Shown here: one piece after another, positions 2,653-31,392 of the stretch
Position numbering within the stretch: position 1 is the stretch's first letter
Layout: every line of letters starts with the position of its first letter
Assembly (NCBI GenBank): GCA_947383145.1
Contig: CANDCH010000016.1
Coordinates: 1-48,809, forward strand
Direction: 5' to 3'
Length of the DNA stretch: 48,809 bases
Source of the DNA: an uncultured bacterium
GTDB taxonomy: Bacteria > Bacillota > Clostridia > Oscillospirales > Oscillospiraceae
Translations under genes and position numbers: made by a program
Notes under the pieces: generated by a model
The model's database searches: none
What the model was told of the DNA's origin: nothing
What the model saw: only the letters and a program-made list of their open reading frames with translations

Positions 2653-3027
2653 ATGGGGCGGACCGACCGGCGCCTTCTGGCGCTGATTCTGGCGGCGGGG
2701 GCGGCCATGCTCCTGTGCTTTGCCCTGGAGCTGGGCACGGCGGCCCCGCTGGACCCCGTTCCCCGGACGGCTCCCGCCGCCGCGGCCCCGGCGGACCGGG
2801 CGGCGCTGGTGGATGTCAACGCCGCCGGACTGGAGGAGCTCATGACCCTCCCCGGCATCGGGGCGGTCCGGGCCCAGGCCATTCTGGACGACCGGGCGGA
2901 AAACGGGCCCTACCGGTATCCGGAGGACCTGATCCGGGTGAAGGGGATCGGCCCGGGGATATTGGAAAACCTTTTGGATCAGATCACCACAGGAGGGGAT
3001 GACTATGCCCAAAATATTGGTCGTTGA
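2653..3027 (+). CDS. ComEA-like helix-hairpin-helix protein
   Basis: A 124-residue protein with an N-terminal membrane helix (about 9-27), an Ala/Pro-rich linker and a C-terminal double helix-hairpin-helix domain. Key pieces are DVNAAG, LPGIGAVRA and VKGIGPG. This is the ComEA architecture, in which the domain binds DNA outside the cell during uptake. No comEB or comEC is nearby; instead the 3' end overlaps the start of a response regulator gene, so transcription is likely shared with the two-component system. A role in DNA uptake is therefore uncertain. Confidence 0.75.
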   Translation: MGRTDRRLLALILAAGAAMLLCFALELGTAAPLDPVPRTAPAAAAPADRAALVDVNAAGLEELMTLPGIGAVRAQAILDDRAENGPYRYPEDLIRVKGIGPGILENLLDQITTGGDDYAQNIGR

Positions 3028-3697
3028 CGACGAGCGGGTTATGGTGAAGGGTATCAAATTCAACTTGGAGAACGAGGGCTATCAGGTGGAGACCGGCTCG
3101 GACGGCGAGGAGGCGGTGGACAAGGCCCGCACCGGCCAGTTCGACCTCATCATACTGGACCTGATGATGCCCAAGATCGACGGGCTCCAGGCGTGCATGA
3201 AAATCCGGGAGTTTTCCAACGTGCCCGTCATCATGCTCACCGCTAAGGGGGAGGACGCGGACAAGATCATCGGCTTCGAGTGCGGCGCGGACGACTACAT
3301 CACCAAGCCCTTCAACATTCTGGAGCTGAAGGCCCGCATCCGGGCCCTGCTGCGCCGGGCGGGGGCGGCGGCCCAACAACAGCGGGAGGCCGACCGCCTC
3401 GCCCAGGGGGCCATCACCCTGGACCTGGCGGAGCGGGCCGCCTGGCGGGACGGGGAGCCGGTGGAGCTCACCGCCAAGGAGTTCGACCTGATGGTGCTGC
3501 TGATGCAGAACCCAGGCCGGGTGTACAGCCGGGAAAACCTTTTGAACCTGGTGTGGGGCTACGAGTATATCGGGGAGTTCCGCACGGTGGACGTGCACAT
3601 CCGCCGCCTGCGGGAAAAGCTGGAGCCCGACCCCGCCAACCCGGAGCACATTCTGACCAAGTGGGGCGTGGGCTATTACCTGGCAAACAATGGATAG
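3005..3697 (+). CDS. OmpR/PhoB-family response regulator
   Basis: A 230-residue regulator with a receiver domain (acidic VVDDE pocket, phospho-acceptor Asp in ILDLMMPK, conserved Lys in the TKPF loop) and a C-terminal winged helix ending in WGVGYYL. I choose the ATG at 3005, about 9 bp from AGGAGG at 2990; the ATG at 2999 lies too close to that site. It overlaps the end of the helix-hairpin-helix gene, and its own end overlaps the kinase gene by 8 bp, so the two are translated together. It should be phosphorylated by the following kinase. Targets are not visible. Confidence 0.93.
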   Translation: MPKILVVDDERVMVKGIKFNLENEGYQVETGSDGEEAVDKARTGQFDLIILDLMMPKIDGLQACMKIREFSNVPVIMLTAKGEDADKIIGFECGADDYITKPFNILELKARIRALLRRAGAAAQQQREADRLAQGAITLDLAERAAWRDGEPVELTAKEFDLMVLLMQNPGRVYSRENLLNLVWGYEYIGEFRTVDVHIRRLREKLEPDPANPEHILTKWGVGYYLANNG

Positions 3698-29830: not shown

Positions 29831-31051
29831 TCAGGGACGCTTTCGCCGCCGGAGCAGGGACAGCGCCGCCGACACCAGCAGCAGCCCCAGCGCCAGACAG
29901 CCCGCGATGCCCATGGTGCGGAAAAACCGCTCCAGAAACTGGTCCGTGTTCCCCCGGAGGCCGAAGTCCATAGCCTGATAGATGGTCAGCCCCGGCACCA
30001 GGGGGAACATCCCCACAATGAGGTAGGAGGCGGCGGGACACCGCCGCACCCGGGCCATCCGCTCCGACCAGGCGGACACCGCCGCCGCCGCCAGCACGCT
30101 GGCCGCGAAGGGGTTGTCCGCGGCGGCCATAGCCGCCAGATACACCGCCCAGCCCAGGGCGCCCCCCAGGCCGCACAGCAGCATCCCCACCCCCTGGGCG
30201 TTGTAAGGAACGCAGAAGCCCAGGCAGGCCGTGAACGCGAACAGGCAGTACAGCAGGGGGGCGTACGCCACGGGCGCGGCGCTGGGGGGCGGCGTCAGCC
30301 CCTGGAACAGGGCCATGGCCGTCCCCGCCCCCAGGGCGATGGCCCCCGCCGACAGCACCGCCCGGGCAAAGGTGGCCAGCCCCGCCACCAGGTCCCCGGT
30401 GAGCAGGTCGCTCATGAAGTTGGTGAACACCAGCCCGGGCACCAGCACCATGATGCTCCCCGCCACCGTGATCTCCAGGCTGATGGGGGCCCCCAGCGCC
30501 CCCAGGCCGCAGGCCGACGCCCCCAGCACAAAGGCGGACGCCACCGTGGCGAGGAAGGGGTTGGCCCCCGCCCGGTCCAGAAGGGTGAGGCACACGCCGC
30601 AGGCCAGCCCCGACAGCCCCGCCGCCGCGGCCTCCGCCCAGCCGCCGGAGAAGAACAGCCCGAAGAAAAACGCCCCCACAAAGTAGCCCAGCAGGCACAG
30701 CGCCGCCGGATACCGCCGCAGGCCCGCCGCCGTCTCCCGGCACAGGCGGAGGATGTCCGCCGGGTCCTCCGGCGGGTCCGCGCACAGGCGGCGGGACAGG
30801 TCGTTGAACCGCTCGATGCCCTCAATGTCCACCGAGGAGGGCGGCACCCGCCGCATCACCGTGTGGCTCCGGCCGGAGGGGCCGGGGGCGCTCACCCACA
30901 CGCAGTTGGGGATGGCGAACACCTCCCCCTCCAGCCCGTAGGCCGCCAGCAGGCGGCGCACCGTGTCCTCCGCCCGGGGAATCTCCGCGCCGCAGCGCAG
31001 CAGCTGCCGCGCCATCTCGCAGCAGCCTTGCAGCAGCAGATCGTGCTCCAT
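29831..31051 (-). CDS. thrE: ThrE-type threonine/serine exporter family protein
   Basis: A 406-residue protein carrying both ThrE domains in one chain: an N-terminal part (DUF1212, with a cytoplasmic segment followed by five helices including FGLFFSGGWAEAAAAG) and a C-terminal membrane part (DUF3815) ending in LLRRRKRP. Many Firmicutes split these into two genes. Export of threonine or serine is known for the founder; the substrate here is inferred. An AGGAGGG site precedes the start. Confidence 0.85.
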   Translation of the reverse strand: MEHDLLLQGCCEMARQLLRCGAEIPRAEDTVRRLLAAYGLEGEVFAIPNCVWVSAPGPSGRSHTVMRRVPPSSVDIEGIERFNDLSRRLCADPPEDPADILRLCRETAAGLRRYPAALCLLGYFVGAFFFGLFFSGGWAEAAAAGLSGLACGVCLTLLDRAGANPFLATVASAFVLGASACGLGALGAPISLEITVAGSIMVLVPGLVFTNFMSDLLTGDLVAGLATFARAVLSAGAIALGAGTAMALFQGLTPPPSAAPVAYAPLLYCLFAFTACLGFCVPYNAQGVGMLLCGLGGALGWAVYLAAMAAADNPFAASVLAAAAVSAWSERMARVRRCPAASYLIVGMFPLVPGLTIYQAMDFGLRGNTDQFLERFFRTMGIAGCLALGLLLVSAALSLLRRRKRP

Positions 31052-31079: not shown

Positions 31080-31107
31080 TTGACAAAGCGGGAGAAAGGA
31101 GTATACT
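31080..31107 (+). promoter_or_regulatory. Promoter for a predicted antisense RNA
   Basis: TTGACA, 16 bp, TATACT, pointing right into the small-peptide locus. The predicted start is about 31114. The -10 box lies in the near-palindrome TAGTATACTA, which could also help the divergent thrE gene. Confidence 0.7.
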
Positions 31108-31113
31108 AAGCAT

Positions 31114-31212
31114 AGTGGGGCGCCGCTACGGACGGTCAGCCTCCCTCTAGATCAACACAGTTACGTTGACCGCTTGGGTGCCTTCCAAGCGGTCAACACG
31201 CTTTTGGGGCCG
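31114..31212 (+). ncRNA. Predicted antisense RNA of a type I toxin-antitoxin-like locus
   Basis: The transcript from the promoter at 31080 would run about 85-100 nt and end at the 12-bp hairpin 31166-31196 followed by CACGCTTTT. Its 5' part contains GGTCAGCCTCCCTC, which can pair with the Shine-Dalgarno stretch AGGGAGG of the peptide mRNA, and its 3' part is directly antisense to the end of the peptide gene. No open frame with a ribosome site is present. Existence of this RNA is a prediction. Confidence 0.5.
31166..31196. terminator. Shared 12-bp inverted repeat between convergent transcripts
   Basis: TTGACCGCTTGG pairs perfectly with CCAAGCGGTCAA around a 7-nt loop. It contains the stop codon of the small peptide. 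A T4 run follows on the plus side; none is evident on the minus side. Confidence 0.7.
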
Positions 31213-31288
31213 TCAGAATCATCAGCAGGAGCACTGCGATGAACCATGCCGCGAAGCGAAGGGCCTTCGCCCCGCGCCCGTCTCCCAT
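31193..31288 (-). CDS. 31-residue hydrophobic peptide, candidate type I toxin
   Basis: The ATG at 31288 lies behind a strong GGGAGGTGG site. The product has a basic, Gly-rich N terminus (MGDGRGAKALR) and one membrane helix (WFIAVLLLMILT) and ends APKAC. The Shine-Dalgarno is buried in a hairpin at 31297-31323: CCTCCCTCAC, loop, GTGAAGGGAGG. A promoter (31364-31392) sits upstream and a convergent promoter faces the gene from the other side. This is the layout of type I toxin genes such as those of the par, txpA and bsrG classes, but the peptide matches none of these by eye. A small membrane protein without toxic action is the alternative. Confidence 0.65.
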   Translation of the reverse strand: MGDGRGAKALRFAAWFIAVLLLMILTAPKAC

Positions 31289-31296
31289 CTGCACCA

Positions 31297-31323
31297 CCTC
31301 CCTTCACAGCGAGGTGAGGGAGG
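31297..31323 (-). promoter_or_regulatory. Hairpin that hides the ribosome site of the small peptide
   Basis: On the minus-strand RNA, CCTCCCTCAC pairs with GTGAAGGGAGG (one bulged A) around CTCGCT, closing off the Shine-Dalgarno. Confidence 0.8.
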
Positions 31324-31363
31324 CCGCTGACCGCCGTTTATATGTAACGGCGCCTTATGTTCC

Positions 31364-31392
31364 ACTATACCATATCAAAACAGAAAACGCAA
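31364..31392 (-). promoter_or_regulatory. Promoter of the small peptide gene
   Basis: TTGCGT, 17 bp, TATAGT on the minus strand, giving a leader of about 70 nt that contains the hairpin. Confidence 0.7.

Follow-up and report, generated by a model that had tools for sequence, protein, structure and literature searches.

The window analysed here, a 48,809-nucleotide stretch that is contig 16 of the 2.48-Mb, 58-contig genome of an uncultured Oscillospiraceae bacterium, carries a short cassette in which a 31-codon frame for a predicted membrane peptide is faced by a convergent promoter for an antisense RNA. The cassette looks like a genuine, unannotated element with dozens of copies in related gut bacteria and phages, in which at least three small peptides are carried on one conserved pair of RNAs. 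From comparison of these copies we predict, with good confidence, that the locus belongs to a new family of type I toxin-antitoxin modules, with a modular chassis that carries either the peptide of the window (type A) or unrelated peptides (types B and C). We also favour, with less assurance, a broader reading in which the chassis would be a general silencer cassette of the Oscillospirales and phages, with unrelated small toxic peptides swapped in and a fast-changing linker preventing cross-talk. New here are a covarying helix between two elements of the toxin mRNA, termed E5 and E3, the divergence of the linker between paralogues, and the presence of at least two other peptides on the same chassis.

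Architecture of the cassette

The original prediction described a frame with a ribosome site, two convergent promoters, a hairpin over the stop codon and a second hairpin burying the ribosome site, all of which are present in the window (Table 1). The frame runs on the minus strand from an ATG at 31288 to a stop codon at 31195-31193 and encodes MGDGRGAKALRFAAWFIAVLLLMILTAPKAC, whose most hydrophobic 15-residue stretch, residues 12-26, has a mean Kyte-Doolittle value of 2.65. The strand from 31360 to 31125 folds better than 200 of 200 shuffled sequences (z = -3.77). An Rfam scan returned a single match, below threshold and outside the locus. Searches of Pfam, NCBIfam, PHROGs, PADLOC and PDB gave no significant family for the type A peptide or its relatives, in keeping with the earlier remark that the peptide is unlike known toxins, and one type A query had no match in the phage and plasmid collections.

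For comparison we assembled a working set of 67 type A copies from Oscillospiraceae genomes. Measured against TTGACA/TATAAT, the antisense promoter matches all 12 positions in 55 copies and at least 11 in 65 of the 67; among 3515 control windows, 12 positions match in 5 and at least 11 in 17, which places the predicted promoter beyond chance. The sense promoter is weaker, with 12 of 12 in nine copies and at least 11 in 37 of 67. Convergent promoters and a sequestered ribosome site together give the type I toxin-antitoxin-like build that had been proposed.

Conserved RNA helices and their strand polarity

A search for the locus across the Oscillospiraceae, with analysis of covariation, had been suggested as a check; among the relatives, a covarying helix of about 26 pairs joins E5, at the 5′ end of the toxin mRNA, to E3, which lies just inside the antisense promoter. 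The cognate pairing energy is -44.2 kcal/mol compared with -35.5 kcal/mol for permuted partners, a difference reached in none of 5000 permutations (61 of 66 copies, the other five having failed the element cut-off). Supplied with no structure, RNAalifold recovered E5:E3, the ribosome-site hairpin and the central hairpin over the stop codon from 36 of the 67 copies, picked for diversity, with two-sided changes in 31 of 49 pairs. When a named structure of 44 pairs was scored on the same copies, 90.7% of cells paired, 24 pairs changed on both sides against 17.0 in shuffles, and 136 cells did so against 47.2; further pair types in this structure were not above shuffles (111 of 500 as high).

Because related sequences can exceed shuffles, we added a test of the strand on which the wobble pairs lie. 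Within E5:E3 of type A, 106 wobbles are G.U on the toxin strand and 33 are G.U on the antisense strand only (copies G251b and G014c were excluded, and G007, G030 and G149a positioned by hand); the toxin strand is likewise favoured in type B (126 v 36) and type C (46 v 4). The type A ribosome-site hairpin also reads as a toxin-strand structure (58 v 3), and the type A central hairpin points in the opposite direction, to the antisense strand (1 v 69). Restricting the count to copies less than 80% identical left 45 v 21 for E5:E3 (p = 0.004), 26 v 7 for the ribosome-site hairpin and 1 v 31 for the central hairpin. The worst case, mutation of one arm alone, leaves E5:E3 significant in all three types and the central hairpin significant in type A. 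The comparison thus supports the view that E5:E3 and the type A central hairpin would each be kept as RNA on their respective strands.

The polarity of the wobbles bears on whether the cassette might be a miniature inverted-repeat transposable element (MITE), a small transposable element whose terminal inverted repeats hold promoters by chance. The inverted repeats at either end, the varied sites and the occurrence of several copies in a genome would all suit such an element. Repeats kept as DNA are rejected by the strand preference, since the mismatches are mostly toxin-strand wobbles in all three types, also against the one-arm worst case; moreover the repeats change by compensation, and no target-site duplication was seen, though no systematic search was made. 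We consider a MITE very improbable.

One part of the original prediction did not survive the comparison. It had placed the mechanism in pairing of the antisense sequence CCTCCCTC with the ribosome site. Such pairing is possible in the window copy (G000, -15.1 kcal/mol), but across the family cognate pairs show no advantage over non-cognate pairs (-8.45 versus -8.47, with 1102 of 2000 permutations equally good).

One chassis, several peptides

Upstream of thrE in the relative G032 we found the chassis with another peptide, MRITLHIGAYTVTIMVKRRNRHPAR, which defines type B. Peptides of this type have the form MRITLHIG...NRHPGR and are less hydrophobic than type A; those of type C have the form MTTSELFQ...KKK. 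A type B search gave matches in 66 of 300 family genomes at E 0.05, in 37 of 106 genera. The window's genome itself has three type B places, two of them weak (contig 28 near 15519 and contig 8 near 1224); the third, a type B cassette (L234, contig 28, 12400-12900), shows E5, E3 and the antisense promoter by eye. Of 32 type B copies recovered independently of the promoter pattern, 31 have the antisense promoter; ten further copies were found through that pattern, as were all 13 type C copies.

The 3′ signature alone, with no peptide, found 24 of the 149 relatives and, in the family set, 63 of 400 genomes; its reversed form gave no match in the same scans. Inspected by eye, the loci recovered in this way (30 from the relatives set and 40 chosen from the family set) comprise type A, shorter A-like forms, type B, type C such as MTTSELFQFCLVIIGIIGLFLQAKKK, orphan 3′ halves and some chance matches. 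As in type A, cognate E5:E3 pairs beat permuted ones in type B (41 copies) and type C (13 copies), a result equalled by none of 2000 permutations. The type B and C counts omit a type C copy in L311 and a copy in Vescimonas, both recognised by eye only.

Pfam gave no significant match for the type B or C peptides scanned. By eye, type C resembles TxpA and BsrG, and we tried it as a member of Hol_Tox; because that profile (PF16935) had no match among seven type C peptides or in eight genomes, type C is not assigned to TxpA/BsrG. One type C query had no match in phages or plasmids, and a second had none in plasmids.

Some loci carry more, or less, than one complete cassette. Vescimonas fastidiosa MM35 (L342, about 2880-3330) has a type B cassette and an additional, orphan 3′ half where the annotation leaves a gap between jag and a TatD-family gene. 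In G004 (L259) a type B-like 3′ half comes immediately after a type A cassette. Orphan 3′ halves with the hairpin, E3 and the antisense promoter and no peptide frame also occur at L303, L307, L318, L332 and L336; they could be remnants or stand-alone antisense RNAs.

Divergence of the linker between paralogues

Between the central hairpin and E3 lies a linker with a median length of 23 nt (65 copies). In eight type A pairs from the same genome the frames are 95-99% identical and the linkers 0.48-0.65, compared with 0.46 (s.d. 0.06) for shuffled linkers. Tandem pairs diverge likewise after the stop codon, with values of 0.99 for the frame and 0.60 for the post-stop sequence in a type B pair (G233), and 0.97 and 0.61 in a type C pair (L331). 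In structure models of 56 copies (ten named copies were skipped) the linker is more open than average in 52 mRNAs and 51 antisense RNAs. We infer that the linker is the site at which the antisense RNA recognises its mRNA.

The central hairpin falls into few sequence classes (TTGACCGC, TTAGCCGC, TTAACCGC and TGACTGCC), which recur beside distant peptides (L117, L118, L119, L129, L093 and others). From their sequences, hairpin and linker appear as if exchanged between loci.

Termination of the two RNAs

In a strict scan 34 of 66 type A copies had a terminator for the toxin strand at the antisense -35; among control windows it was 34 of 667. Using other windows, this terminator was found in 34 of 65 type A, 15 of 41 type B and 5 of 13 type C copies. 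By the stop-codon hairpin the same windows gave toxin-strand and antisense-strand terminators in 27 and 6 of 66 type A copies, and in 4 and 13 of 13 type C copies; 22 of 42 type B copies have one on the antisense strand. The type C antisense RNA is therefore clearly able to end at the hairpin. In type A a U run follows a few bases past the hairpin on the antisense strand, by eye.

The hairpin had been predicted to terminate both RNAs. For type A its wobbles assign it to the antisense RNA, contrary to a shared role, and a toxin-strand terminator is found there in some copies, as a shared role would have it; a terminator for both RNAs is no more than a possibility. The antisense polarity of the hairpin, taken with the toxin-strand terminator at the antisense -35, implies that at least a portion of the toxin transcripts should continue through the antisense gene, and the E5:E3 helix means that some of it must reach E3. 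Toxin-strand terminators by the hairpin in type A and B copies make partial termination there possible.

The strict scan also found an antisense-strand terminator just outside the sense -35 in 33 of 64 type A copies (controls, 34 of 667). These terminators suggest either that the cassette is often insulated on both sides or that longer antisense transcripts exist.

Observations that count against the proposed module

Several observations argue against the predicted module or parts of it. Coding selection on the peptide is modest: the expectation that the frame would be conserved against synonymous change holds to the extent of a ratio of nonsynonymous to synonymous change (pN/pS) of 0.62 over 496 pairs, with pN below pS in 432, and the other five frames give 0.70-1.51, two of them 0.70 and 0.72. 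Such a value, with RNA structures better kept than the peptide, could point to a non-coding RNA element whose frame is incidental. We give that reading almost no credence, since three separate peptide families stand at the same place behind a ribosome site, a stronger argument than pN/pS that the peptide frame matters.

The terminators raise a second difficulty. In the strict scan 19 of 67 type A copies have, by the stop-codon hairpin, a toxin-strand terminator that would end the mRNA before E3, and just 6 of 67 have one for the antisense strand; for type B the other windows gave a toxin-strand terminator there in 25 of 42. The structural evidence is also uneven. In the one-arm worst case the type A ribosome-site hairpin nearly loses significance (p = 0.009) and the central hairpins of types B and C lose it, and the wobbles of the type B ribosome-site hairpin lean the other way (16 v 28, p = 0.10). 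The median for the ribosome site being unpaired is 0.13 in full-length and truncated mRNA models alike (56 copies), leaving its release unexplained by the models.

Finally, the linkers do not always behave as recognition sites might. In eight between-genome pairs with frames at least 90% identical the linker is kept in two (1.0 and 0.86) and ranges over 0.30-0.69 in six, and the two linkers of a type B pair in G240 are identical. Given this identity and the poorly kept between-genome linkers, the linker may simply drift fast.

Distribution and genomic context

A DNA search found matches in 18 of 99 relative genomes, the window's own included, and with the peptide as query 18 genomes gave 25 matches at E ≤ 0.0014, those with E ≥ 0.0198 having been dropped. 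A profile of 24 peptides matched, at E 0.01 and with marginal rows counted, 43 of 400 family genomes and 27 of 106 genera; of its matches, rows with E > 0.002, G049 (stop inside), G278 and the fragments G298:C312, G184:C163 and G184:C211 were then dropped, and G298:C260 (L132) was unused. At E 1e-4, a profile of 62 peptides found 14 of the 394 genomes scanned from the order, and a pattern search among named genomes gave 11 contigs, with Oscillospiraceae, Flavonifractor, Pseudoflavonifractor, Butyricicoccus and Ruminococcaceae among their titles. The neighbourhoods of the copies are mostly unrelated, and three tandem pairs have a spacing of 344-404 bp.

By coordinates, 9 of the 67 copies adjoin thrE. 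In these the sense promoter sits where cassette-free relatives have the promoter before thrE (empty sites were examined upstream of thrE, at 12 loci). The window copy, directly before thrE and probably on one transcript with it, could on this account be taken for a leader peptide or attenuator of the exporter. Its position argues otherwise and led us to reject the idea: so few copies lie beside thrE, among mostly unrelated neighbours, and five relatives have a different frame there, that a role in thrE expression has only a very slight chance of being correct. This other frame, of about 45 amino acids (MPPENERKDVQKAMAYDLLKLL...; L175, L176, L177, L181 and L183), lies between the promoter and thrE, and neither Pfam nor PHROGs gave a significant match for the one scanned.

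Eight viral contigs encode the peptide, and all eight show the antisense promoter by eye. Seven nearby proteins, from four of these contigs and one further contig, were scanned and six match phage families, holin, endolysin, tail, baseplate and Holliday resolvase among them. This company would suit a non-toxic small membrane peptide, for example a phage lysis-timing or exclusion factor, held under an antisense RNA by the same architecture for another purpose, and the toxicity of the peptide is itself only predicted. We regard such a peptide as unlikely. Many copies sit in other contexts, such as beside thrE, and toxins that each need silencing would account for three unrelated peptides on one chassis, for multiple and tandem copies and for the divergence of the linkers.

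Proposed mechanism

For the toxin-antitoxin module we propose that the sense promoter would drive a toxin mRNA running into or through the antisense gene. In the full-length mRNA the ends would be paired through E5:E3 and the ribosome site held in its local hairpin, structures supported by comparison; with its ends paired and its ribosome site hidden, this mRNA should translate poorly. The strong antisense promoter would produce an RNA of about 94 nt that contains the stop-codon hairpin and has a 5′ part of nearly the same sequence as the mRNA 5′ element. This RNA would meet the mRNA 3′ region at the linker and hairpin, probably at the linker first, and the duplex could spread into E3 and silence or destroy the mRNA, perhaps through RNase III. 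Were the antisense RNA lost, the peptide would be made and would act on the membrane. We infer transcription, the outcome of pairing, toxicity and activation from this arrangement.

Comparison with known type I systems

In the Fst/par system of Enterococcus the repeats common to both RNAs are direct and lie at the 5′ ends. The cassette shares with it convergent promoters, an antisense RNA hairpin at the end of the toxin gene and a buried ribosome site, but its E5/E3 repeats are inverted and the Fst_toxin profile (PF13955) had no match. The Bacillus pairs txpA/RatA, bsrG/SR4 and yonT/SR6 are type I systems with a 3′-overlapping antisense RNA. The cassette resembles them, as far as part of PMC5848175 describes them, in its small membrane peptide, its association with phages and a convergent antisense RNA, about 100 nt long, that overlaps the toxin gene in its 3′ part. 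It differs in that the type A peptide has no match to the Hol_Tox profile, in having a 5′-3′ helix whose 3′ arm is the antisense gene, and in its exchange of cargo.

A long-distance 5′-3′ interaction is shared with the full-length toxin mRNAs of hok/sok and of Helicobacter aapA/isoA, where, according to PMC6733600, this helix itself keeps the ribosome site out of reach until the 3′ end is trimmed. In the cassette that task falls to a separate local hairpin, and truncating the mRNA leaves the site closed in the models. In E. coli zor/orz, as a portion of PMC3919570 describes, duplicated loci with a divergent gene layout are distinguished by a 3-nt specificity region in the antisense RNA. The variable stretch proposed for a similar role in the cassette is about 23 nt long. 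Within the Clostridia, C. difficile CD2517.1-RCd8 and its relatives likewise have convergent overlapping genes and prophage copies, with cognate-specific antitoxins; their toxins, of 34-53 aa with lysine-rich ends in the part of PMC6563280 concerned, are set apart from ours by description rather than by sequence. An overview of toxins is given in PMC8309996. The Panacea antitoxin domain is reported to follow the same principle of one antitoxin for many toxins, with a protein antitoxin in place of an RNA chassis. A literature search on such systems in Oscillospiraceae, Faecalibacterium or Vescimonas found nothing relevant.

On the broader reading, the chassis would do as RNA what promiscuous antitoxins do as proteins. 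The shortness of both parts and their lack of annotation make type I systems hard to find, and the 3′-half DNA signature finds the chassis in gut bacteria regardless of the peptide carried. The paralogues form a natural set for asking how antisense RNAs keep their specificity, whether a single strand is contested between a 5′-3′ mRNA helix and an antisense RNA, and in what way unrelated toxins come to share one regulator. The type B copy in the named strain Vescimonas fastidiosa MM35 makes a test in a named strain possible.

Features of the window locus

In the window the cassette is flanked by a thrE-like exporter on its own strand (31051-29831) and by an SLH-domain protein on the opposite strand. 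No terminator or other promoter was seen between cassette and exporter, and so the two probably form one transcript.

Table 1. Coordinates of the cassette elements and the adjoining exporter in the window
Feature	Position	Strand	Remarks
Sense promoter TTGCGT-17-TATAGT	31364..31392	-	8/12 to consensus
E5, toxin mRNA 5′ element	31326..31354	-	partner of E3
Hairpin burying the ribosome site AGGGAGG	31297..31323	-	
31-codon toxin-like frame	31193..31288	-	one predicted membrane helix; stop codon within central hairpin
Central hairpin, inverted repeat over stop codon	31165..31197		antisense-RNA structure by wobble polarity, probably near antisense 3′ end
Linker	31141..31164		varies among paralogues; putative recognition site
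E3, complement of E5	31119..31140		complement of E3 is the 5′ part of the antisense RNA
Antisense promoter TTGACA-16-TATACT	31080..31107	+	11/12 to consensus
Predicted antisense RNA, ~94 nt	31114..31207	+	both ends predicted
Smallest toxin mRNA holding E5 and E3	31119..31357	-	predicted ends; 3′ end probably further on
thrE-like exporter	29831..31051	-	probably co-transcribed with the cassette here
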